Below, in pieces: positions 757 to 11,362 of a DNA stretch of 11,362 nucleotides. The DNA comes from Methanobrevibacter sp. (GTDB taxonomy: Archaea; Methanobacteriota; Methanobacteria; Methanobacteriales; Methanobacteriaceae). Numbering within the stretch: the stretch's first letter is position 1; each line of letters starts with the position of its first letter. The stretch lies in NCBI GenBank assembly GCA_017404125.1, contig JAFRCZ010000169.1:1-11362 (forward strand). Reading direction: 5' to 3'. The position numbers and the translations under genes are program-made. The notes under the pieces are model-generated. The model was given only the letters and a program-made list of their open reading frames with translations. It was not told the DNA's origin and did no database searches.

Positions 757-878
757 GATCATTTTGATTAAATCGAATGAATTTTCTATGATTGTTTCTT
801 AAATGTTTTAAATTGACTTTTTTAGAATTTGCAGGTTTGATTTTTCAAGATGGTTTGATTTCTTTAAGAAAAAATTTT

Positions 879-884
879 GGAGAT
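879..884 (+). promoter_or_regulatory. Ribosome binding site GGAGAT
   Basis: GGAGAT sits 8 nt before the ATG at 893 and supports that start codon. Confidence 0.6.
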
Positions 885-892
885 AAAATTTT

Positions 893-1969
893 ATGTTAGA
901 CATAAAACATACAATATGCCCTTCATGTTCTGTAGGATGTGGGCTAAATATTGTTTCAAAAGATGGGACAGTAGTTGGTTCTTATCCATATAAAAGACAT
1001 CCTATAAATGAAGGTAAAAATTGTTTAAACGGTCGAAATTCCATCCTGCAATTTGATAATCAAATTGAGGAACCTTCAATAGTGAAAAATGGTGAACTTG
1101 AGGGATCTGACTGTGAAACTGTCTTAAACATTGTTAAAGACCAGTTAGCTTCCATAGATAAAAATGAGTTAGCCATTATCTGTTCCGGTAACAGCACTAA
1201 TGAAGAGCTTGATAAGATTAAAGAATTTGCTGATGGCTTTGGTTGTGAAAAAATAGGATTTTATGGATATAACTTCCCTAATTTCTCAGCTGATGTAGCA
1301 AGCTATGATGATATAGCAAGTGCAAACACCATATTGGCTATTGGGGACATTTATAGGGAAAATCCTTTATTGGCTAGAAGAATAGTGTTGTCTAAAGAAA
1401 ATGGTGCAAAGCTAATTAATTTAGATGATGTGGAAAAATCCATTACTTCTTTGAATGCAGATGAATTCATTCAATTTGAGGGTCATCTTGATGATAAGAT
1501 TGATGCTCTTAAAAGCGAATTGGATGAAAATTCAATAATCATTGCAAACAAGGTCTGTTGCAAAGATGACTTTGTATCATTGGAATCCTTAGCTGAGGGT
1601 ACCGGTGCAAAGCTATTGCCTGTTTTCAATGCCCCTAACATGAAAGGTGCAATGAATAGAATGGATTCATGGGACGCTGAAGAAGTAAAGAACATTATTG
1701 ATGACTCTAAAGTACTTATTGTCGTGAAGGATAATCCATTGGAATATCTATCTAAAGACGACATAAAAGGAAAAGGTTTTATTGTAAATATTTCCAATGA
1801 AGACAATGCATTTGCAAAAATATCTGATGTCATTCTTCCAGGTAAGTCCTGGGCAGAAAAGACAGGAACTTTCACTAACTGTGAAGGTGTGGAACAATGC
1901 TTTGACATTTCTGCAGAAATTGAAAATGATAATTTAAGCGAAGTGGAAATATTCGATGAGCTTGCTTGA
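893..1969 (+). CDS. FdhA-like molybdopterin oxidoreductase homologue, short and degenerate (FlpA-type)
   Basis: A 358-residue protein of the molybdopterin oxidoreductase superfamily. The N-terminus has a 4Fe-4S binding pattern C9-x2-C12-x3-C16-x27-C44. Rossmann-like segments for the pterin-guanine-dinucleotide domains follow, and a C-terminal block near 315-340 (SDVILPGKSWAEKTGTFTN) matches the conserved region of formate dehydrogenase and FwdB families. It is about half the usual length of FdhA and has no C-terminal domain. The Lys normally after the fourth cysteine (C-x-K-G) is Asn46, and the segment that carries the active-site Cys/Sec in formate dehydrogenases (around 125-140 here) has none. 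It may therefore bind a cluster, and perhaps cofactor, without oxidising formate. It is the first gene of an operon whose next two products are F420- and Hdr-linked, so an electron-transfer or scaffold role is likely. FlpA of Methanothermobacter is the closest named relative I recall; the family is solid, the exact function is not. Confidence 0.85.
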   Translation: MLDIKHTICPSCSVGCGLNIVSKDGTVVGSYPYKRHPINEGKNCLNGRNSILQFDNQIEEPSIVKNGELEGSDCETVLNIVKDQLASIDKNELAIICSGNSTNEELDKIKEFADGFGCEKIGFYGYNFPNFSADVASYDDIASANTILAIGDIYRENPLLARRIVLSKENGAKLINLDDVEKSITSLNADEFIQFEGHLDDKIDALKSELDENSIIIANKVCCKDDFVSLESLAEGTGAKLLPVFNAPNMKGAMNRMDSWDAEEVKNIIDDSKVLIVVKDNPLEYLSKDDIKGKGFIVNISNEDNAFAKISDVILPGKSWAEKTGTFTNCEGVEQCFDISAEIENDNLSEVEIFDELA

Positions 1970-1973
1970 TATC

Positions 1974-1979
1974 GGTGAT
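1974..1979 (+). promoter_or_regulatory. Ribosome binding site GGTGAT fixing the FdhB-like start
   Basis: GGTGAT lies 3 nt upstream of the ATG at 1983 and is an exact match to the archaeal anti-Shine-Dalgarno. It selects 1983 over the in-frame ATG at 1956, which lies inside the preceding gene. Confidence 0.6.
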
Positions 1980-1982
1980 AAA

Positions 1983-3134
1983 ATGAGTGAAAAATTTATT
2001 CTTGCTAAAAGTAAAGCAAATGAAATAACTGATAGTGGAGCATGTGGAGGAGCAGTAAGTTCTATTTTCCAATATTTATTAGCTAATGAAATAGTTGATG
2101 GAGTATTGACTCTTAATAAGGGTGTTGACATCTATGACGGTGTTCCAAGACTTCTAACAAGTGCAGAAGAAGTAATTGAGACATGCGGTTCCTTGCATTG
2201 TGCACCTACAATGGTAAGTGACTTGATTTCTGATTTTTTAGCTGATGAAAGAATAGCTGTTGCAGTTAAGCCATGTGATGCAAAGGCTATTAATGAATTG
2301 GTTAAAAGACACAGAATTGATGGCGATAAGATCATCACTGTCGGTTTGAACTGTGGTGGTACAGTAAGGCCTGAAATGGCACAGGAAATGATCGAAAAAT
2401 TCTATAAGGTTGACCCTTCCAAAGTCGTTAAGGAAGAAATTGACAAAGGTAAATTCATCATTGAGCTTGATGATGGTGAAGAAATCGGAATCAAGATTGA
2501 TGACTTGGAAGAGGAAGGTTACGGACGTCGTGACAACTGTCAAAGATGTGAACTTAAAGTTCCTCGTAATGCTGACATTGCATGTGGTAACTGGGGTAGC
2601 GAACCTGGTTGGACATTTGTTGAAATCAACACTGAAAAAGGTCAGGAAATAATTGATGGAGCTATTGCAGAAGGATTTATTGAAACCAAAGCACCTTCTG
2701 AAAAGGCTTTGGAAATGAGGGACAAAGTTGAAAACATCATGATTAAGATGGGTAATAGAAATGTGGGTAAACAATTGGATGATGGTTTATCCCTTGAAGA
2801 ATGGGAGGCTCAATGGAACAAATGTATCAAATGTTTTGCTTGCCGTGATGTTTGCCCTATCTGTTGGTGTCATGAATGTGAACTTGAAAAACCTTACTTT
2901 AAGGATGATCCGCAATCACCTCCTGATCCATTAGGATTCCATGGGGTCAGATTATCTCATATGAGTCCAAGCTGTATTAATTGTGGTCAATGTGATGACG
3001 TTTGTCCAATGGAAATTCCAGTATCCAAGATATTCCACAAAATTCAAAAGAAATATGAAACTCACACTGGATATGTTGCGGGTATTGGTGATGAAAAACC
3101 TCCATTATACAGTCCAATGAAAGAAGACTTTTAA
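1983..3134 (+). CDS. Coenzyme F420 hydrogenase/dehydrogenase beta subunit family protein (FdhB/FlpB-like)
   Basis: A 383-residue FAD- and iron-sulfur-containing protein of the FrhB/FdhB family, which in methanogens exchanges electrons with coenzyme F420. Visible family segments are [10 protein letters not shown] near 18-27, CGSLHCAP near 68, KPCDAKA near 96, LNCGGT near 122 and [20 protein letters not shown] at 186-205. Towards the C-terminus are two 4Fe-4S sites, C281-x2-C284-x2-C287-x3-C291 (followed by extra cysteines 294, 296 and 299) and C331-x2-C334-x2-C337-x3-C341. The ATG at 1983 is preferred because of its GGTGAT site and because homologues begin MSEKF-like; an in-frame ATG at 1956 would add nine residues overlapping the previous gene. 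It starts 13 nt after the FdhA-like gene, so the two are surely co-transcribed. It probably carries electrons between F420 and the MvhD-like protein encoded next. Family assignment is firm. Confidence 0.92.
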
Positions 3135-3148
3135 AGGAGTTGAATTTT

Positions 3149-3550
3149 ATGGCAGAAGATGTTAAAATAGTAGGTTTTTGTTGTAATTGGTGTTGTTATG
3201 GTGGTGCTGATACTGCAGGTACTGCACGTATGCAATATCCTCCAAATGTAAGAATCATAAGGGTTATGTGTTCTGGAAGAATCAATCCTTCTATGATATT
3301 CAAAGCATTTAAGGAAGGTGCAGATGGAGTATTTGTAGGAGGCTGTCACATTGGTGATTGTCACTATGATGCTGGTAATTACAAATGGAATAGAAGAGCA
3401 TTGATGACTAAAGACATCATAGAGGAATTTGGAATTGACAAGGAAAGATTTAGATTTGAATGGATTTCAGCATCTGAAGGAGAAAAATTCCAAAGGACTA
3501 TGAAAGAGTTTCACAATACCATTAGCCAACTTGGACCAAGAAACAAATAA
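3149..3550 (+). CDS. mvhD: MvhD-family hydrogenase iron-sulfur (delta) subunit
   Basis: A 133-residue 2Fe-2S protein of the MvhD/VhuD family. In methanogens MvhD docks hydrogenase or formate dehydrogenase onto heterodisulfide reductase HdrABC and delivers electrons to HdrA for flavin-based bifurcation. The conserved cysteines are all visible: CCNWCC at 11-16, C41 in MCSGR, and C66 and C71 in [10 protein letters not shown]; the length is normal. The ATG at 3149 follows an AGGAG site (3135-3139) at 9-nt spacing. A TTG at 3140 is possible but lacks such a site. It starts 14 nt after the FdhB-like gene and completes an FdhA-FdhB-MvhD-like triplet. Because the mvhGA hydrogenase genes are absent here, this is probably a paralogue (FlpD-like) and not the copy belonging to the main Mvh hydrogenase. 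The family is clear; the partner complex is inferred. Confidence 0.92.
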
Positions 3551-3630
3551 TTAGACTGTTGAACAATAATAATGAAATAAAATTTTTAAAAAAATAGATT
3601 TTAATTAATCGTGTTTCAAAACTAAATAAA

Positions 3631-3717
3631 AGCTATCTATACTTCTAAAGGAAGTTTAGTGCTTCTATTAATAGTAAGCTATATTTCTATGAAATTTAGT
3701 GATTCTATAAAAAAAGT
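3631..3717. repeat. Imperfect tandem repeat of about 45 bp
   Basis: Unit 1 (3631-3676) and unit 2 (3677-about 3717) both start AGCTAT, contain TTTAGTG followed by a TTCTAT segment, and end in AGTA. They differ by several substitutions and a few missing bases in unit 2. They look like an old duplication; function is unknown. Confidence 0.4.
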
Positions 3718-3794
3718 AAACCATATTGTTTTATCTAATTCCAAAACAAACAAAACATTAAAAAGTTTTTATTCTCGAAATTCAGACGAAAAAA

Positions 3795-3909
3795 AAGAAG
3801 ATTTAATCATTAAATCAAATCAATAAATTTAAATTAATTTTCAAATCAAATCAACTTATTACTTCCAGGTAATATTTATAAATTTAATTTAAATAGATTA
3901 AATCTTCTT
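3795..3909. repeat. Nested inverted repeat with ATTAAATC motifs
   Basis: AAGAAGATTTAATC (3795-3808) is the exact reverse complement of GATTAAATCTTCTT (3896-3909). Inside it, ATTTAAATTAA (3827-3837) pairs with TTAATTTAAAT (3884-3894). The left arm also overlaps a local palindrome, GATTTAAT-c-ATTAAATC (3800-3816). The central part contains a small potential hairpin, ATTAC-n6-GTAAT, near 3860-3875. A structured RNA or regulator-binding region is possible. Confidence 0.4.
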
Positions 3910-3914
3910 AAATC

Positions 3915-3991
3915 CAATTAAAATTAATAGCTCATAATTAAATCTTGAATTTGAATTTATCCATTTGAGATTTAATTATTAATTTTAATTG
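3915..3991. terminator. Long 24-bp hairpin, probable bidirectional terminator region
   Basis: CAATTAAAATTAATA (3915-3929) and ATTAAATCT (3937-3945) pair continuously with 3968-3991, giving a 24-bp stem with one 7-nt bulge (3930-3936) and a loop of about 22 nt. T-rich sequence follows on the plus strand (about 4010-4036). The position between convergent genes fits transcription termination, but archaea do not need hairpins, so an RNA-stability or regulatory role is also possible. Confidence 0.4.
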
Positions 3992-4106
3992 AAAAGTAAA
4001 TTTTGTTATATTTTTAATAAACTTGATTTTTTTTTAAACTGTTTATATTAGTACATCTATTTTTATAATCCATATTTATTAAGTTTTTACATATTATTCT
4101 AGTTTT

Positions 4107-4125
4107 AGTAATACTTTTTTTAAAA
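4107..4125 (-). repeat. Inverse copy of the A-tract AGTATTACT element
   Basis: The minus strand reads TTTTAAAAAAAGTATTACT, identical over 19 nt to 213-231. It lies about 50 nt downstream of the stop of the flavodoxin-like gene and reads in that gene's sense direction. Confidence 0.55.
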
Positions 4126-4173
4126 ATTTTATTAAGTTTAAGATTTTTAAAATTTGTCATGCAATATATTAGA

Positions 4174-4806
4174 TTATAATACCAGTTCTTTTCCTTTTTC
4201 GAAAGCTGCTTCTCTTTCTTTTGGGAAAATCTTTTCATGTCTTTCATATCTTTCTTCAGCATTGAAGAACCATGGCCAATCTGTTTTGCTGTAATCCTTA
4301 AGCTGAAGTGTTTCTCCAGATACAAAGACTTCAGTAGGCCCTACAAAGCCGTTGAATATGTTTTGATATTTCTCAAGCAATTCCACATACATTGTATCAG
4401 GGGCATTGCTTGTCATGATGAGCAATGTTGGAATTGGATTTTCATTGCAGCATGGAGTTTCAGCATTGTATGTCAAGTTTTGGAATACCAATCTTTCATA
4501 AAGTGCTCTAAATGATGCGGTCATTTCACTTAAATAGTTTGGAGATCCGATAATCAAGCCGTCAGCTTCACGAATAGCATCCAATACTTCTGTCAAGCCG
4601 TCTTTGCGTATGCATTTTCCTTTATATTTCTCTTTCTTGCATCCGAAGCATGAAACGCAACCTGTGTATTTTTCCAAACGGAACAAGTTGAACTTTTGAA
4701 CTTCTGCTCCTGCAGATTCCGCCCCTCTTATTGCCTCATCGATTAATGTGTCAGTGTTCCATCCTTTTCTTGGTCCTGCATTAACAGCTATTATTTTTTT
4801 AACCAT
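4174..4806 (-). CDS. Flavodoxin-fold NAD(P)H-dependent oxidoreductase with a cysteine cluster (Isf-like)
   Basis: A 210-residue cytoplasmic flavoprotein of the NADPH-dependent FMN reductase / iron-sulfur flavoprotein group. The FMN phosphate-binding turn is near residues 8-20 (NAGPRKGWNTDT). The flavin-contacting loop after strand 3 is visible as IIGSPNYLSEMTASFRALYERL at about 85-107. A cysteine motif C50-x2-C53-x2-C56-x8-C65 probably holds a 4Fe-4S cluster, as in Methanosarcina Isf; the last gap is slightly longer than in the Isf proteins I know. The start is supported by AAAGGAGAT at 4810-4818. In methanogens such proteins are thought to act in redox shuttling or oxidative stress; the substrate here is unknown. 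It is transcribed alone, convergent to the flp-like operon and divergent from the channel-like gene. Confident on fold, not on partner. Confidence 0.88.
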   Translation of the reverse strand: MVKKIIAVNAGPRKGWNTDTLIDEAIRGAESAGAEVQKFNLFRLEKYTGCVSCFGCKKEKYKGKCIRKDGLTEVLDAIREADGLIIGSPNYLSEMTASFRALYERLVFQNLTYNAETPCCNENPIPTLLIMTSNAPDTMYVELLEKYQNIFNGFVGPTEVFVSGETLQLKDYSKTDWPWFFNAEERYERHEKIFPKEREAAFEKGKELVL

Positions 4807-4809
4807 TTT

Positions 4810-4818
4810 ATCTCCTTT
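4810..4818 (-). promoter_or_regulatory. Ribosome binding site AAAGGAGAT
   Basis: On the minus strand AAAGGAGAT lies 3 nt before the ATG at 4806 and supports that start. Confidence 0.55.
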
Positions 4819-5012
4819 TAAAATTTGTAAAAAAAATTCATTAGTTGTGTTATTTTTTTATTGTTTATTTAATTTAACTATTGTTATTTTTAATTCCACA
4901 TTTCTTAATACTAAATTCTAAATCATAAATAACTATTTAAAATAAAAATAAGAAAGTAAAAATAAGAGAATAAAAAACAAAATAAAAAAAGAAAAATAAA
5001 AACTGTGGTCAT

Positions 5013-5831
5013 ATGAATAATAATTATTTAGTTTTTCAGATAATAGTTTCATTAATAATTTTTGGAATCATTTTTCTGATGGGATATACTTTAAAGGACA
5101 GAATCCTTCATAAGGTAAATTTCTTTTTAAATCCTCACGAGTATCTGCCGGATGAACAAATAAAAACATTAAAGCAGTTTTATTATCTGCTTTTAATTCT
5201 GGTTCTGTTTGTAACAATCGTAAACTTCTTTTTTGATAATGATATAGTCATGCATAACAGTCCGGAGTTTTATGTATTTAATTCAGTAATAGATATAATA
5301 TGTTCAATGTATATTGGAATAAACATTTATGACGGCTCTAAAAAAAGCAAAATATTAATCGTGTTCTTAATCCCACTTGCTTCAATCGCATTTTTACTGT
5401 TTGGAGAGTCAGTAATTGAATACTGGGATTTTATACGTATTCCTGCATTATTATACATTATGAAAATATTATATGATAAATTCAAGACATTCACTACTAA
5501 ACATAATCTTGGAAAATCAATATTTCTGCTCTTTACAATAATCTTTATCACTTTTATCCTAACTCTCTTTGTAGAGAATGAAGATCCATTAAACGCTTTG
5601 GTCATGGTGTCTAATGCATTTACAAGTAATGGGTATGCGATTACTGGTGAAAGTGTTGTAGGAAAAATCATCAGTATTTTTCTGGTATGGAGCGGTTATA
5701 TCATATCCGGAGCAGCTACAGCCACTTTAAGTGCTGCAATTCTAATCACTCACTTCAATCGTAAACTAAATCGTTATGATGAAAAATTCGAGAATCTTGA
5801 AAATCTGATAAAAGACCTGAAGGATGATTGA
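5013..5831 (+). CDS. Six-helix ion-channel-like integral membrane protein
   Basis: A 272-residue membrane protein. Hydrophobic helices are visible at about 6-26, 56-74, 87-106, 113-132, 168-187 and 217-246. Between the last two is a short re-entrant-looking segment with TSNGYAITG at 204-212, placed where potassium channels carry the TVGYGD selectivity filter. The C-terminus (248-272) is charged and looks coiled-coil, as in tetrameric channels. The layout of six helices, a pore loop before the last helix and a C-terminal coiled coil resembles the ion-transport / K+ channel superfamily. The filter is not canonical and no clear voltage-sensor arginine ladder is seen, so ion selectivity and gating are unknown. 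Upstream only a weak GGTCAT-like site precedes the ATG. Downstream, the duplicated mch leader begins 30 nt after the stop. Membrane location is firm; channel identity is an inference from pattern. Confidence 0.75.
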   Translation: MNNNYLVFQIIVSLIIFGIIFLMGYTLKDRILHKVNFFLNPHEYLPDEQIKTLKQFYYLLLILVLFVTIVNFFFDNDIVMHNSPEFYVFNSVIDIICSMYIGINIYDGSKKSKILIVFLIPLASIAFLLFGESVIEYWDFIRIPALLYIMKILYDKFKTFTTKHNLGKSIFLLFTIIFITFILTLFVENEDPLNALVMVSNAFTSNGYAITGESVVGKIISIFLVWSGYIISGAATATLSAAILITHFNRKLNRYDEKFENLENLIKDLKDD

Positions 5832-5861
5832 GGTAATGAAACATTTAAACTGGAATAATTT

Positions 5862-6070
5862 TATAAAATTTTAAATATTTAGTTAATTAACTGTAAATAT
5901 AATATTTTATTCATTTTTAATAATAATTCAATTTAATCGATTTATTTATTTATTTATTTTTATTTGAATAAATTAATTTACAAATGTATTTTAATTGAGG
6001 TTAAAATATGGTTAGTGTTAATTTAGAAGCTAAAAAAAATGTAGATATAATGATTGAAAAAGCTGATGAT
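5862..6070 (+). repeat. Left direct repeat: diverged copy of the mch leader and first 21 codons
   Basis: This block aligns with 10269-10493. The 63 coding bases (6008-6070 against 10431-10493) align without gaps and differ at five positions. The noncoding part shares TATAAAATTTTAAATA, TTAGTTAATTAA, ATAATATTTTATTCATT, TTATTTTTATTTGAATAAA and TTTTAATTGAGGTTAAA, with a net 16-nt length difference. This copy has an ATTT microsatellite at 5940-5959 that the right copy lacks. Similarity stops sharply after 6070. Confidence 0.85.
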
Positions 6071-6139
6071 ATATATTTTAAGAAATTTATTATATATAAT
6101 AATATTATATTAATATTTTCCAAAATCAATTTCATTTAA
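6008..6139 (+). pseudogene. mch: Truncated mch 5' fragment
   Basis: The ATG at 6008, with its GAGGT ribosome binding site, begins a frame whose first 21 residues (MVSVNLEAKKNVDIMIEKAD and one more D) match the intact mch product except for T11N and V14I. Homology then ends and the frame continues through unrelated A/T-rich sequence to a TAA at 6137-6139, giving a possible 43-residue peptide. The last 30 nt overlap the 3' end of licD on the other strand. It cannot make cyclohydrolase. It may still be transcribed, because the leader is largely preserved, and would then run antisense into licD. Confidence 0.8.
6087..6102. terminator. Perfect 16-nt palindrome downstream of licD
   Basis: TTATTATATATAATAA at 6087-6102 is a perfect palindrome just past the licD stop codon (minus strand) and 17 nt inside the left duplication boundary. 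It may help end the minus-strand operon. Weak, being pure A/T. Confidence 0.25.
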
Positions 6140-6934
6140 AATGTGCCCTACACGTTCTTCTTTAGGGGGAAGTTGCATATAATCCCCATATATTGGCATT
6201 AATGTGTTGTCATCATTATTGGGGATATTAAATATATGATCTTCAAATTTAGATTTTTTTGGAGGTTTGTAATCACTTCTTTTAAAGACTACTCTTTCTC
6301 TTAAAGTTAAATCTGTAACATATTGCCCTGGTTCTGATTCATATTTTCTAAATAACTTTGATAGTTTCTTTTGAAAATATTTATCATTTATTTTAAATAA
6401 ATTTAACAGATCATGGATAATATTGAGGGATAAATTAACAATTTTTGAAAATTTATAAAATTTCAATACGGACAGAGAGTAAAATCTTGAATAAATAAAA
6501 CAACAATGAAGATAAATCTGCCGTTTTAATTTATTATCGGGTAAATTGTCTAGAATAAATAAATCTATATGAATTCCTAATTTAAATGAAACTTGATCAT
6601 CCCAATATTCCGCCCAATATGTTTCATTTAAAGACATTCTACCAAATTGGAAGAAATATTCACTATTATATCTTGAATCAAAAATGGTATATTTTTCACA
6701 GGGATTTTCTTCCATTACTTTTAAGAATTTTTCATAATCTTTTCTAAACATTATTATATCAATGTCATCGTCCCATGGAATAAATCCTTGATGTCGAATG
6801 GCTCCTATTTGAGTTCCATAAATCAAGTAATATTCAATGTTATTATCTTCACAAATCTTAACGAAATCTTTTAAAATCATTAATTCAACATCTTGAAGAT
6901 GGGATAAAACGTTATCATTAAGAATCTTATCCAA
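6110..6934 (-). CDS. licD: LicD family phosphotransferase
   Basis: A 274-residue member of the LicD / nucleotidyltransferase-fold family, whose members move a phospho-substituent (phosphocholine, or a related CDP- or CMP-activated group) onto cell-surface glycans. The signature is clear: YGTQIGAIRHQG at 39-50 followed by PWDDDIDI at 53-60, which carries the metal-binding aspartates. The start is a TTG at 6934, with GAGGGAT at 6939-6945 as ribosome binding site. The next in-frame ATG (codon 19) would cut into the conserved N-terminal helix LQDVELMILKDF, so TTG is preferred. It starts 12 nt after the cytidylyltransferase fusion and is the last gene of the operon, which supports transfer of a CDP-activated group made by the upstream genes. 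There is no obvious signal peptide or membrane helix, so it probably acts on a cytoplasmic lipid-linked or nucleotide-linked precursor. The acceptor and exact donor are unknown. Confidence 0.88.
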   Translation of the reverse strand: MDKILNDNVLSHLQDVELMILKDFVKICEDNNIEYYLIYGTQIGAIRHQGFIPWDDDIDIIMFRKDYEKFLKVMEENPCEKYTIFDSRYNSEYFFQFGRMSLNETYWAEYWDDQVSFKLGIHIDLFILDNLPDNKLKRQIYLHCCFIYSRFYSLSVLKFYKFSKIVNLSLNIIHDLLNLFKINDKYFQKKLSKLFRKYESEPGQYVTDLTLRERVVFKRSDYKPPKKSKFEDHIFNIPNNDDNTLMPIYGDYMQLPPKEERVGHILNEIDFGKY

Positions 6935-6946
6935 TTAAATCCCTCG

Positions 6947-8275
6947 TCAATATCTTTTTATAAAATTCACATCTTTATTTTCAAAATCTTCAATTATTTT
7001 ACAAATAGCTTTGGAAATATTATAGTCAATATATCCATTATATTTGCCCAATTCTATTGATTTAGCAAATGCGACAAGTTCATATCTTATGCCCTCCCCA
7101 TCCAATTGATAAAAATATTTCCGATTATCCTCTAAATTTTCATATCTTAATTCAAAATAATCTGTCTTCCACCATGGCGCGGGTACATAAGCATATCCTT
7201 CTGTTCCAGAAATTATTAATTCCCCTTCTGATTTAACACTATTTGCAACTTTTATTGAAGCAACAGCATTATCATATTGGAAATCAATTTTTGTAAATAA
7301 GTCAAAGTTTGGTTTTTCATCTAAAGTTAATGAATTTATAGTTTTGTTTTTATAATCTATGCCTAAAATTTGGAAAATAGGTAAAAGTGCAGTTGGTGCC
7401 CATGAACTAATACTATTCCAAGAATTATCATCAAAATCTCTTAAACTGGTACATGTAGCATCAATAGAATAAATGTTTCCAATATTTCCCCCTTTCATCA
7501 AAAGCAATAATCTGTTATAAGCAGTTGAGTAAGCAGTTTTAATAGAATCCATTAAAATTAAATTATTTTCCATAGCTAATTTTTGCAATTCATCAAATTC
7601 TTTTTCATTTAATGCAACTGGGGATTCACATAAAACATGCTTTCCTTGTTTTAAAGCTTTTTTAATCTGTGAATAATGTTTAGATGGATGTGATATAATA
7701 AATACTGCATCGACTATTTTTAATAATTCATCATAATCCTTAGAAAAAATTAGATTTTCATTTTTATAACATTCTTTTTCAGAATCATTGTCAGTGAGAA
7801 TGGTATTAACTTTAATGCCATTAACTAATTTTGATTCATCATGGAACTTTTTTAAAACATTACCCTCTCCAACAAGGCCTAAATTGATATTCCTTTTTTT
7901 AGATCTAATATTAGAACTTGAAACACCTTCAGTACGTGGCAGATATACAACATCACAATATTCATTTAAATAATCAAAATGACCTACCCAATCTGAACCT
8001 ACAGTAAAAATATCTACTCCAAATCGTTTAATATCATCAATTTTCTGGCCCTCATATTCTTCAACAATTATTTCATCTGCAAGACCTGTTGCACGTACAG
8101 ATTCAATTCTTTCCATCAATGATTGTTGTACATTAATTTTTCCCCTTTTTTTATCAAAATCATCAGTTGTGACTCCAACAATAAGATAATCACCTAATGC
8201 TTTTGCTCTTTCAAGAAGTCTTTGATGTCCATAATGAAATAAATCATAAGTTCCATATGTAATTACTTTAATCAT
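6947..8275 (-). CDS. Fusion: TagD-like cytidylyltransferase with Gfo/Idh/MocA-type domain
   Basis: A 442-residue two-domain protein. Residues 1-128 closely resemble glycerol-3-phosphate cytidylyltransferase (TagD): HYGH at 14-17, VGSDWVGHFDYL at 92-103 and RTEGVSSSNIR at 114-124, all nucleotidyltransferase hallmarks and apparently intact. This half should join CTP to a small phospho-alcohol. Residues 130-442 have the Gfo/Idh/MocA oxidoreductase fold (Rossmann start LGLVGEGNVL at 132-141, HPSKHYSQIKKAL at 196-208, then an alpha/beta domain). However, the usual EKP motif with the catalytic lysine reads ESP (217-219), the third glycine of the nucleotide loop is Leu141, and the D-x3-H segment expected near 295-305 (WAPTALLPIFQILG) has neither Asp nor His. 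Ordinary dehydrogenase activity is therefore doubtful. The ATG overlaps the aminotransferase stop as ATGA (8272-8275), so translation is coupled. The fusion resembles in principle Haemophilus Bcs1, which couples polyol-phosphate reduction to CTP activation with different folds. Confidence 0.88.
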   Translation of the reverse strand: MIKVITYGTYDLFHYGHQRLLERAKALGDYLIVGVTTDDFDKKRGKINVQQSLMERIESVRATGLADEIIVEEYEGQKIDDIKRFGVDIFTVGSDWVGHFDYLNEYCDVVYLPRTEGVSSSNIRSKKRNINLGLVGEGNVLKKFHDESKLVNGIKVNTILTDNDSEKECYKNENLIFSKDYDELLKIVDAVFIISHPSKHYSQIKKALKQGKHVLCESPVALNEKEFDELQKLAMENNLILMDSIKTAYSTAYNRLLLLMKGGNIGNIYSIDATCTSLRDFDDNSWNSISSWAPTALLPIFQILGIDYKNKTINSLTLDEKPNFDLFTKIDFQYDNAVASIKVANSVKSEGELIISGTEGYAYVPAPWWKTDYFELRYENLEDNRKYFYQLDGEGIRYELVAFAKSIELGKYNGYIDYNISKAICKIIEDFENKDVNFIKRY

Positions 8276-9348
8276 TTTAATATTCCTCTTTGTTTTAAAT
8301 CGTGTAATGCTTCAATTAATTGGTCATTATCTTTGATGGTTAAATTCCCAATATGCCCTACTCTAAACATTTTCTTCCCAACTTTTCCTCCATTAGGATT
8401 TACCCAAATGCCATATTCATTTTTTAAAGCATCAACAATAGTATCTGCTTCTGAATTAATACAATACACACCAGTAACTGAATTTCCTAAACTTTTGCAA
8501 CGAATTTCTAATGGTAAATCTTGAATTCTTAATCTAAAATCATTAGCTAACTCAGAAATCCTTAAAATTTCCTCTTCAACCCCTCCATTATTTTTAATTT
8601 CTTTTAATCTTGCATTTATTTGTAATAATATTGTAACTGCAGGAGTGAATGGAGTCTGGCCTCTTTCACCATTATTTAACATGTCTTTTAAATCAAAATA
8701 CATACTTTTGCATTCATTATTCATAACCCGTTCTAATGCTTTTTCCCCTAAAACTATTATTGAAATTCCAGGAGGGCAAGCCAATGCTTTTTGAGAACCT
8801 GTAATGAATACATCAATATTGTCTTTTGTCATGTTTAAAGGATTAGCTAAAAAAGAACTTATTGCATCTACAACCAAAAAGATATTATTTTTATTACAAA
8901 ACTCAGAAATTAAATTTAAATTATAATAAACGCACGAACTAGTTTCACAGATATTAACCAAAAATCCAGTGAAACCTTGATTACTATACTCATCTAAAAT
9001 TTCTTTAGTGATATCTTGACCAAAGTCAAGTTTAATTTGATCATGAGGGATATTATGAAGTTTACATAAGTCTACAAAACGTTGACCGAATCCCCCACCA
9101 TTAACAATTAAAACTTTATCATTTTCATTGAAAACGTTCATTACTGTGGCTTCCATAGCTGCAGTTCCAGACCCAGTGATAAAAACAACTCTGGAATCTG
9201 CACTGGCATATACAAATTCTTTTATTAATTTTTCATTCTCAAGCATAACTTGTGAAAATTCTTCATTTCTAAAGTATGGAGTTTGTTCACATCCAATCTT
9301 TAAAACATCAGAACTACTCATTACTGGGCCAACAGTAAAATTCAACAT
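8272..9348 (-). CDS. Class V PLP-dependent aminotransferase (PhnW / alanine-glyoxylate type)
   Basis: A 358-residue fold-type I, class V aminotransferase. Visible features are LNFTVGPV at 2-9, GSGTAAMEA at 59-67 (phosphate-cup region), D161 in VVDAISSF (pairs with the PLP ring nitrogen), the Schiff-base lysine K187 in GSQKALACPPG, and a C-terminal FRVGHIGN whose arginine should bind the substrate carboxylate. Relatives include 2-aminoethylphosphonate-pyruvate transaminase and alanine-glyoxylate aminotransferase; the sequence alone does not settle the substrate. ATG at 9348 is chosen because AAGGTG (9354-9359) lies 5 nt before it and relatives start MLNFTVGP. A TTG at 9366 would add six residues and overlap the methyltransferase. 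It lies 10 nt after the methyltransferase and overlaps the next gene by 4 nt. In this context it probably makes an amino-alcohol, amino-phosphonate or amino-sugar precursor for the CTP step; no PEP mutase or phosphonopyruvate decarboxylase gene is in the window. Confidence 0.87.
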   Translation of the reverse strand: MLNFTVGPVMSSSDVLKIGCEQTPYFRNEEFSQVMLENEKLIKEFVYASADSRVVFITGSGTAAMEATVMNVFNENDKVLIVNGGGFGQRFVDLCKLHNIPHDQIKLDFGQDITKEILDEYSNQGFTGFLVNICETSSCVYYNLNLISEFCNKNNIFLVVDAISSFLANPLNMTKDNIDVFITGSQKALACPPGISIIVLGEKALERVMNNECKSMYFDLKDMLNNGERGQTPFTPAVTILLQINARLKEIKNNGGVEEEILRISELANDFRLRIQDLPLEIRCKSLGNSVTGVYCINSEADTIVDALKNEYGIWVNPNGGKVGKKMFRVGHIGNLTIKDNDQLIEALHDLKQRGILK

Positions 9349-9353
9349 ATTAA

Positions 9354-9359
9354 CACCTT
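9354..9359 (-). promoter_or_regulatory. Ribosome binding site AAGGTG fixing the aminotransferase start
   Basis: AAGGTG on the minus strand, 5 nt before the ATG at 9348, favours that start over the upstream TTG at 9366, which would place this site inside the coding region. Confidence 0.5.
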
Positions 9360-10066
9360 CATTCAATCACAAAATATTTATAATGAGTTTCGCTATGACT
9401 ACTCAAATCTTCAAAAATATCATCAGCAAATATTTTATTATAGTTTAAAATTTCAAATAAGTCCATATATTCTTCTTCAGTTCTATATATTGCATTGTAA
9501 TCAGCTTCTAAACCTTCGGAATAGAAATCTTTAAGAGTTAATCTTGAACCCATACGAGAAACAGGTTCCATTATAAATAATTTTTTGTCATCTGAACAAA
9601 TACGATTAAGTTCATTGAAAACTAATTTGATATCCTCATCATTAATGTACATTAGAACCCCACTAAAAATAATTACATCAAAGGGAGGTTTAATTAATAG
9701 GGTATCTGCTTTAATATCAGTTGCAGACATTACTTGAAACTTACAATTATCAAAATCATATGATTTTTTAGCTATTTCAATTAAATCTTCTGTATAATCA
9801 ATTCCTAAAAAGGATTCGCATTTATCATGTAATGCTTCAGCCCAACGACCAATTCCACACCCTACTTCAAGAATGATTTTCCCATCAACGTTAATGTGTT
9901 CATGGAATATTTTTTTTTCTTCAATATGTCTTTGTTCTGAGTTTTCTTTTTCCTGAAATAATACAATAGATAAATCGCTTTCCAAATCACGATTTGCCCT
10001 ATCACTAAAAAAATTTTTTACATCATCAGGATTAATATCTTTTTTTTCACCATATAATCTAGACAT
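9359..10066 (-). CDS. Class I SAM-dependent methyltransferase
   Basis: A 235-residue Rossmann-fold methyltransferase. Motif I is ILEVGCGIGRW at 65-75; the acidic residue that binds the SAM ribose is in GIDYTEDLIEIAKK (about 92-105); motif IV-like FDVIIFSGVLMYIND lies near 129-143. The N-terminal 60 residues are charged and helical-looking, probably a substrate lid. It is the first gene of the four-gene minus-strand operon and starts behind AGGTG (10073-10077, 6 nt before the ATG). By context it may methylate the amino or hydroxyl group of the small molecule that is later CDP-activated, or the finished glycan. There is no membrane helix. The family is certain; the substrate is unknown. Confidence 0.88.
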   Translation of the reverse strand: MSRLYGEKKDINPDDVKNFFSDRANRDLESDLSIVLFQEKENSEQRHIEEKKIFHEHINVDGKIILEVGCGIGRWAEALHDKCESFLGIDYTEDLIEIAKKSYDFDNCKFQVMSATDIKADTLLIKPPFDVIIFSGVLMYINDEDIKLVFNELNRICSDDKKLFIMEPVSRMGSRLTLKDFYSEGLEADYNAIYRTEEEYMDLFEILNYNKIFADDIFEDLSSHSETHYKYFVIE

Positions 10067-10090
10067 TTAAAACACCTAAAAAATAGATTA

Positions 10091-10110
10091 TTATATAGTA
10101 TATTTAAACT
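10091..10110 (-). promoter_or_regulatory. Probable TATA region of the glycan-modification operon
   Basis: Read on the minus strand this is AGTTTAAATATACTATATAA. The TTTAAATATA part (10099-10108) is centred about 37 nt before the methyltransferase ATG. Transcription starting about 25 nt downstream would fall near 10078, leaving a short leader that just includes the AGGTG site. Inferred from spacing and composition only. Confidence 0.4.
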
Positions 10111-10227
10111 CATTTAAATAAGTTAACGTAAAAAAATAAAATTAATATTTAATTATACAAATTAAAAAATTTATATCATATTTATGAATATAATTTAGGC
10201 TATGTTTTTATAATATTCATATTGTTC

Positions 10228-10260
10228 CAAATTTTATAGAAGTAATAATTCTAAAATTTG
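10228..10260. repeat. Bulged inverted repeat next to the right duplication boundary
   Basis: CAAATTTTA (10228-10236) pairs with TAAAATTTG (10252-10260); after a 2-nt bulge GAA (10239-10241) pairs with TTC (10249-10251), leaving a 7-nt loop. It ends 8 nt before the right direct repeat begins. It could be a terminator left from former DNA, a regulator site, or part of the insertion junction. Confidence 0.4.
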
Positions 10261-10268
10261 AATCAATG

Positions 10269-10493
10269 TATAAAATTTTAAATAGTTAGTTAATTAAAGA
10301 TATCATTATAATATTTTATTCATTATCAATAAATAAATTCAATTTAAATCAATATTTTTAAATCAATTTAATTATTTTTATTTGAATAAACTAATTATAA
10401 ATTAAAATATATTTTAATTGAGGTTAAACTATGGTTAGTGTCAATTTAGAAGCTAAAAAAACTGTAGATGTAATGATTGAAAAAGCTGACGAC
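10269..10493 (+). repeat. Right direct repeat: functional mch leader and first 21 codons
   Basis: This is the intact partner of 5862-6070; the two copies bracket the four-gene minus-strand operon. Here the repeat leads without interruption into full-length mch. The leader includes AATTGAGGTTAAA with its GAGGT ribosome binding site (10420-10424), 6 nt before the ATG. Confidence 0.85.
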
Positions 10494-11362
10494 CTTAACA
10501 TTGCTGTTTCCAAATTAGGAAACGGAGCAACCGTTATTGACTGTGGTGTAAATGTCGCTGGTAGTTTTAAAGCAGGTGAATTATATACTAAAGTATGTCT
10601 TGGAGGATTAGCTGATGTAGGTATTTCCATTCCTGGAGACTTATCTGAAAAATTCGCATTGCCTTCTGTAAAGATAAAAACTGATTTCCCAGCTATTTCC
10701 ACTTTAGGTGCTCAAAAAGCAGGTTGGTCTGTTTCTGTAGGTGAATTCTTTGCTTTAGGTTCCGGTCCAGCTAGAGCATTATCCTTAAAACCAGCTGAAA
10801 CCTATGAAGAAATTGATTACAAAGATGAAGCTGATCTCGCAATCTTAACTTTAGAAGCTGATGTATTGCCTGGTGAAGATGTAGCAGCATACATTGCAGA
10901 TGAATGTGGTGTAGATGTAGCAAACGTATTCTTGCTTGTAGCTCCTACCGCTTCCTTAGTTGGATCTATCCAAATTGCAGGAAGAGTAGTTGAAAACGGT
11001 ACTTACAAGATGTTAGAATTCTTAAAATTCGATGTTAAGAAAGTTGTACATGCAGCAGGTATTGCACCAATTGCACCTATTGACCCAGATGGATTAAAAG
11101 CTATGGGTAAAACCAATGATGCAGTTTTATTCGGTGGAAGAACTTACTACTATGTCAAATCTGAAGAAGGAGATGACATTGCAGCAGTAGCAGCTCAATT
11201 ACCATCTTCTGCAGCTGATGGATATGGTAAACCATTCTTTGACGTGTTTAAAGATGCAGGATTCGACTTCTACCAAATCGACAAAGGAATGTTTGCACCA
11301 GCTGAAGTTGTTATCAACGATTTAACCACTGGTAAATTATACAAAGAAGGATTCGTTAACGC
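10431..11362 (+). CDS. mch: Methenyltetrahydromethanopterin cyclohydrolase (3' end outside window)
   Basis: This gene encodes Mch, which interconverts N5-formyl- and N5,N10-methenyl-tetrahydromethanopterin in the CO2-to-methane pathway; it acts in the cytoplasm. The 310 complete codons visible, out of about 320 in the family, begin MVSVNLEAKKTVDVMIEKAD and remain open to the window edge. Family segments are visible throughout: NGATVIDCGVNVAGSFKAGE near 31-50, GGLADVGIS near 58-66, SGPARALS near 111-118, GRVVENGTYK at 184-193 (R185 and E188 correspond to the Arg/Glu pair reported as catalytic in the Archaeoglobus enzyme, as I recall it), and FGGRTYYYV in the C-terminal part. The start is firm, with GAGGT at 6-nt spacing. 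Codon use is richer in GC than in the operon upstream, as expected for a highly expressed core gene. Only the C-terminal dozen or so residues are missing. Confidence 0.97.
   Translation, partial: MVSVNLEAKKTVDVMIEKADDLNIAVSKLGNGATVIDCGVNVAGSFKAGELYTKVCLGGLADVGISIPGDLSEKFALPSVKIKTDFPAISTLGAQKAGWSVSVGEFFALGSGPARALSLKPAETYEEIDYKDEADLAILTLEADVLPGEDVAAYIADECGVDVANVFLLVAPTASLVGSIQIAGRVVENGTYKMLEFLKFDVKKVVHAAGIAPIAPIDPDGLKAMGKTNDAVLFGGRTYYYVKSEEGDDIAAVAAQLPSSAADGYGKPFFDVFKDAGFDFYQIDKGMFAPAEVVINDLTTGKLYKEGFVN

Follow-up and report, generated by a model that had tools for sequence, protein, structure and literature searches.

A four-gene operon, probably for cell-surface decoration, appears to have been inserted in this Methanobrevibacter DNA between two diverged direct copies of the promoter, leader and start of mch, an essential methanogenesis gene, while three related loci carry the same site empty. 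The window, i.e. the whole stretch of 11,362 nucleotides analysed, is the whole of contig C93, one of the 288 contigs of a MAG (G000) that is 68% complete and 3% contaminated; its Methanobrevibacter host is close to M. olleyae records. As for the mode of entry, a single crossover of the Campbell type, in which a circular molecule would have brought in an mch promoter fragment together with the operon, is given about an even chance. The features concerned are as follows:

5013..5831, plus strand: gene of a channel-like membrane protein in the left flank, marker of the empty site (98% identical in G002, where mch adjoins it)
5862..5877, plus strand: left member of a perfect 16-bp repeat, proposed crossover interval (match to the G002 empty site)
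5862..6070, plus strand: left copy, apparently foreign, with a TATA-like box, leader, start codon and mch codons 1-21, then broken (homologous to 10269-10492; G003-like)
6008..6139, plus strand: ORF of 43 residues that begins as mch and continues antisense to the 3' end of the LicD gene
6110..6934, minus strand: LicD-family protein, probable phospho-group transferase (PF04991, 142.6 bits vs. a cut-off of 22.6, profile positions 1-227 of 227)
6947..8275, minus strand: fusion of a TagD-like cytidylyltransferase and a Gfo/Idh/MocA oxidoreductase (PF01467 and PF01408, both over cut-off)
8272..9366, minus strand: class-V aminotransferase, PhnW-like (PF00266 over cut-off)
9359..10066, minus strand: class I methyltransferase (PF13649, 56.1 bits vs. 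a cut-off of 27)
10121..10268, no strand: 148 bp between the operon and the native-looking promoter (the DNA match to G090 ends at 10120)
10269..10284, plus strand: right member of the 16-bp repeat (match to the G002 empty site)
10269..10493, plus strand: right copy, native-looking, with promoter, leader and mch start (99.6% identical to the G002 empty site)
10431..11362, plus strand: mch, methenyl-H4MPT cyclohydrolase, cut by the contig end (TIGR03120, 437 bits vs. a cut-off of 228.8)

In a DNA search of the window's own genome, positions 5862-6070 were found to be homologous to 10269-10492 (83% identity, 230 bits, E 1.7e-61), and a repeat search of the window also reports this pair of blocks (families D2, D4 and D19). 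Both blocks, in direct order, bracket the four minus-strand genes. The right copy opens an mch of which 310 codons are present before the contig end and which also exceeds the PF02289 cut-off; on the left, the homology to mch ends after codon 21. Five of the 21 codons differ between the two mch parts, three silently and two not (T11N and V14I). Among the mch-like starts listed, N at position 11 is confined to four entries, all of them copies of the left fragment, which would fit a broken gene; I at position 14 also occurs in a few others. The preliminary description of this DNA, which had proposed homologous blocks with five differences in 63 bases, a left copy stopping after codon 21, a right copy opening mch and a self-contained minus-strand operon between them, agrees with these results. 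The same holds for its statement that integrase, transposase and tRNA are lacking: no integrase or transposase family was matched by the four operon genes in Pfam or NCBIfam, and a tRNA search of the window found none, which sets the insert apart from an integrase-type genomic island or provirus. A separate variation of this part of the gene was seen in G012 (L105 and L150), the mch of which shows an in-frame loss of 12 bases, i.e. four codons, at codons 12-16.

The product of the channel-like gene matches no family in Pfam or NCBIfam. In a search of 19 genomes of the genus, this gene is found with at least 82% identity only in C93, G002, G012 and C158, the last being another contig of the same MAG. 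Its position directly before mch in relatives had been set beforehand as a test, and this is what was observed in all three other channel-mch loci found (G002, G012 and C158), each without the operon; relatives all sharing the insert, the outcome that would have contradicted an insertion, were not found. The next-best channel match, in G011 (72%), has one internal stop and is distant from the mch of that genome. A survey of mch loci comprised 89 loci (80 named records and nine fetched regions), reduced to 88 when G007, with a partial mch, was dropped; three of the fetched regions duplicate named records, and the upstream sequence is shorter than 1 kb in seven loci and at least 5 kb long in 61. 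None of the four operon genes gave a tblastn match at E 1e-8 anywhere in any of these 88 loci. Two genomes rated 99% complete, G004 and G023, gave no mch match, be it through an assembly gap or a true absence.

On the left side, the match to the G002 empty site is exact over 5844-5877, and on the right side over 10269-10332. The two stretches share 16 bases, which sets the length of the insert at 4,407 bp (5862-10268). The 16-base run at 5862 and 10269 is presumably the TATA box of the mch promoter, judging from archaeal promoters in general. With the insert left out, the window differs from G002 by six substitutions in 4250-5249, 18 in 5250-5649, four in 5650-5849 and none in 5850-5861; on the right side, a single substitution in 10269-10522 (254 bp) is abruptly followed by seven in 10523-10556. 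A length difference of about 44 bases lies just 3' of the channel gene. Since the left flank and the right copy both continue this G002-like tract, they belong together.

The two copies differ by 26 substitutions, at all of which G002 has the right-hand letter. At the same positions, G003 has the left-hand letter 11 times and the right-hand letter eight times, and G012 10 and 14 times, respectively; in the gap columns between the copies, G003 agrees with the left copy in nine of 16. Eight letters are private to the left copy and none to the right one among the nine leaders compared. Outside the window, the best match of the left block in the 19 genus genomes is the mch leader of G003 (91%), so that a better match to some other gene, which would have spoken against its descent from mch, was not found. 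A leader tree also groups the left copy with the G003 mch leader (support 0.93), but is to be taken as a guide only, because the alignments are short and AT-rich and G007 is plainly misplaced beside the right copy (0.61). From these comparisons, the right copy looks native and the left copy looks like an incomer from a related species.

Two proposals of the preliminary description lose ground here. A tandem duplication of mch, after which the operon took the place of most of one copy, would give two leaders in direct order with the left one truncated. It is weakened by the left copy carrying another species' variants: decay of the right copy does not explain it, 18 of the 26 differences being common to at least one of nine other leaders, and a search for second mch starts in other loci gave no convincing case, the five matches obtained being short and weak (E 6.4 to 9.7). 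We regard this history as very improbable. Nor is it necessary that the insertion rebuilt a working leader and start, because the right leader and start look native and are continuous with the left flank as in G002.

Beyond the junctions, the window and G002 (L149) are near-identical over the FMN-reductase-like gene, the first half of the channel gene, the leader and mch codons 1-31, vs. about 90% identity over 868-4149 and 94% in the mch body. This near-identical stretch would be a recent recombination tract, and suggests that the mch region was recently exchanged between species. In its body, mch resembles G008 (97.2%) and G016 (96.6%) more than G002 (94.3%), and the right copy may therefore itself be partly imported.

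Over 4,012 bp, the operon is colinear at 88% identity (86-89% gene by gene at the DNA level) with a module of G090, a genome from a different genus-level group (g5), and its edges coincide with gene ends. The four genes were aligned in one stretch in five of the ten loci fetched. In G090, the neighbours of the module, named from their translations, are further LicD genes, a flippase-like gene and a glycosyltransferase. Some aminotransferase match was present in 126 of the 138 genomes of the family; those of at least 63% identity, window aside, come from 19 genomes of g5 and one of g3. The aminotransferase of the window pairs with that of G090 (0.989) in a tree of 30 sequences, where it stands away from the four g1 versions used. 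For the fusion protein, the best relative among the 120 matches listed, out of 8,000 candidates scored in a large protein database, has 95% identity, and distant full-length relatives (38-40%) are found in 10 of the 18 other genomes of the genus. No bracketing repeat was seen around the operon in nine of the ten loci fetched; on one side, no more than 600 bases were available for L223 and 90 for L226, and the tenth locus, L221, truncated at a contig end, was omitted. GC3 is lower in the four operon genes (14-19%) than in the six other genes measured (21-33%), the difference being mild. On sequence relatedness, the operon comes from a foreign lineage, the third one beside the native and the G003-like leader lineages. 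Acquisition of the operon, as first suggested, is supported by the three empty sites out of three, this foreign lineage and the duplicated leader marking the insertion.

The single crossover would have proceeded as follows. The incoming DNA would have joined a G003-like promoter, leader and 21 mch codons to a four-gene operon of the g5 type. One homologous crossover between the native promoter and the circle, within the 16 identical bases at the TATA-like box, would then have placed the foreign, truncated mch start to the left of the operon, and mch with its native promoter and leader to the right. As the native promoter and leader stay with mch, the essential gene would keep its own control region, and its expression would continue. 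With this single event, the repeats and the order in which they stand are accounted for, and so are the empty sites and the intact start of mch. Among the routes offered by the preliminary description, it fares best, its circular molecule being presumed. What speaks against it is the place of the crossover, which would have had to be within 16 bp at one edge of the homologous block, although longer identical runs lie inside that block (four of 19 bp and one of 18 bp); the alignments are compatible with a native/donor switch at a point inside these 16 bp. In another history, G002 could once have had the insert and lost it through recombination between the repeats.

A short perfect direct repeat at both ends, with the target intact on one side, would also be left by site-specific insertion at the 16-bp run. 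This would call for an unseen recombinase, none being present among the inserted genes, and the 16 bp lie within a longer, diverged homologous block of about 200 bp, which is what homologous recombination would predict; we find such an insertion barely credible.

The chief biological rival is a linear, partly illegitimate event, with a donor whose operon lay upstream of mch in divergent orientation. Homologous recombination on the right, within mch or past it, would have been combined with an illegitimate join to the recipient mch at codon 21; the left copy would be the recipient remnant and the right one imported. The divergent orientation of operon and mch, like that of an ordinary neighbour pair, agrees with it, as do the mch body, nearer to G008 and G016 than to G002, and the last 13 bp before the right copy (10256-10268), which resemble the same place in these two channel-less genomes, the match starting at 10256. 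For the whole of 10121-10268, a search found no clear source. Conversely, the empty G002 site corresponds to the left flank and the right leader together, while the left leader resembles that of G003, and the operon stands beside mch in none of the 88 loci, so that we hold this route to be unlikely, though not strongly so.

A carrier of the circle was looked for. Neither a circular form nor a gene for an integrase or for replication was found, and the nine plasmid and six phage matches obtained were all below 80% identity, none of them extending over 80% of the insert; a known plasmid or phage carrier is thus not supported. The widest of these matches is an unannotated human-faecal 'Bacteriophage sp.' record (55% of the insert at 65% identity). 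The viral contigs searched held no relative of the aminotransferase or mch and no exact left-junction pattern.

The process itself would be of a known kind, and what may be new is the site, the mixed ancestry and the sharp boundaries. Campbell-type integration leaves a truncated duplicate of the target gene and, as here, direct target repeats bracket the insert, one copy truncated and one whole, with no need for a recombinase; the present case differs in that the copies are 17% apart and of two species, that the crossover would lie at the edge of the homology and that the circle is conjectural. Homology-facilitated illegitimate recombination gives one homologous and one abrupt end, the latter resembling the break at codon 21, but does not require both outer flanks to match one empty site, as they do here. 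For the wall teichoic acid genes of Bacillus subtilis (PMC8753576), an exchange of surface-polymer genes between related lineages is likewise reported; here, by contrast, the exchange took place at the promoter of a methanogenesis gene and left a spare piece of that gene.

The chief technical rival is an assembly or binning error, joining pieces of several strains in one contig. The insert-bearing arrangement has a sole example, C93, in a MAG with two mch genes, the second one, complete, being on C158; C93 ends inside mch, and the stretches sampled from two other contigs are, unlike C93, not especially close to G002 (best 81% and 83%). C93 may thus come from a different strain than most of the bin. 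On the other hand, the longest exact repeat between the left and right sides is 19 bp, which is short for an assembler join, the confinement of T11N to copies of the left fragment fits a broken gene, and the operon edges match gene ends. The short repeats in particular argue against an error, which we consider decidedly unlikely. The C158 mch (L137) has its own channel gene, reflecting either a strain mixture or a true second copy.

As to function, the operon probably decorates the cell surface. It would activate a small polyol phosphate with CTP, oxidise, aminate and methylate it, and LicD would then transfer the modified polyol phosphate to a cell-surface polymer. The nearest solved structures of the front half of the fusion are glycerol-3-phosphate cytidylyltransferases, the fusion being below the TIGR01518 cut-off (114 against 165.4); that of the aminotransferase is 3f0h, deposited simply as aminotransferase, its TIGR03301 score also being below cut-off (160 against 360.8). 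With these structure matches and no PEP mutase over cut-off, the favoured product would be a polyol phosphate that has been aminated and methylated and that LicD would transfer to a polymer of the cell wall. One candidate is serinol phosphate, a compound described in studies of the Campylobacter capsule. A phosphonate product is disfavoured: PEP mutase was over cut-off in none of 12 genomes, with weak matches in five, in a search of unproven sensitivity that also found none over cut-off in 14 control genomes and included a MAG (G000) only 68% complete.

According to its genome report, M. ruminantium M1 has high wall phosphate and teichoic-acid-like genes (PMC2812497). The LicC/LicD and Pnt decoration pathways (PMC6697681) likewise bring together a cytidylyltransferase, an aminotransferase and a LicD-type transferase; here, the cytidylyltransferase is TagD-like and fused to an oxidoreductase, the aminotransferase is below the PhnW cut-offs and the 12 genomes lack a PEP mutase over cut-off. 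In the open-licence literature, no paper was found on an insertion at mch, on LicD in Methanobrevibacter or on LicD with a cytidylyltransferase and an aminotransferase in methanogens.

The locus provides a base-level record, involving three lineages, of a surface-modification cassette apparently entering a methanogen genome via the promoter homology of a core gene, with no visible mobile-element enzyme and with the essential gene unbroken. Surface variation in rumen Methanobrevibacter bears on how these archaea interact with viruses and with their hosts, and on anti-methanogen measures. More speculatively, and with little probability in our opinion, the mch promoter and leader could be a landing pad in Methanobrevibacter, where circular surface-gene cassettes would anchor by a piece of leader and insert at the TATA-like box, leaving mch unharmed, the spare promoter firing into the 3' end of the operon as antisense tuning. 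The gene content just upstream of mch does vary between relatives, with an FMN-reductase-like, channel or FlpD-like gene lying there in G002, G003, G008, G010, G012 and G016, but a further insert between two mch leaders was not encountered.

Elsewhere in the window, an Rfam search gave a single match (1247-1319), below the gathering score and distant from both leaders. Positions 893-1969 encode a 358-residue formate-dehydrogenase-alpha-like protein (92.7 bits vs. a family cut-off of 666), and this short gene is followed by FdhB- and FlpD-like genes.
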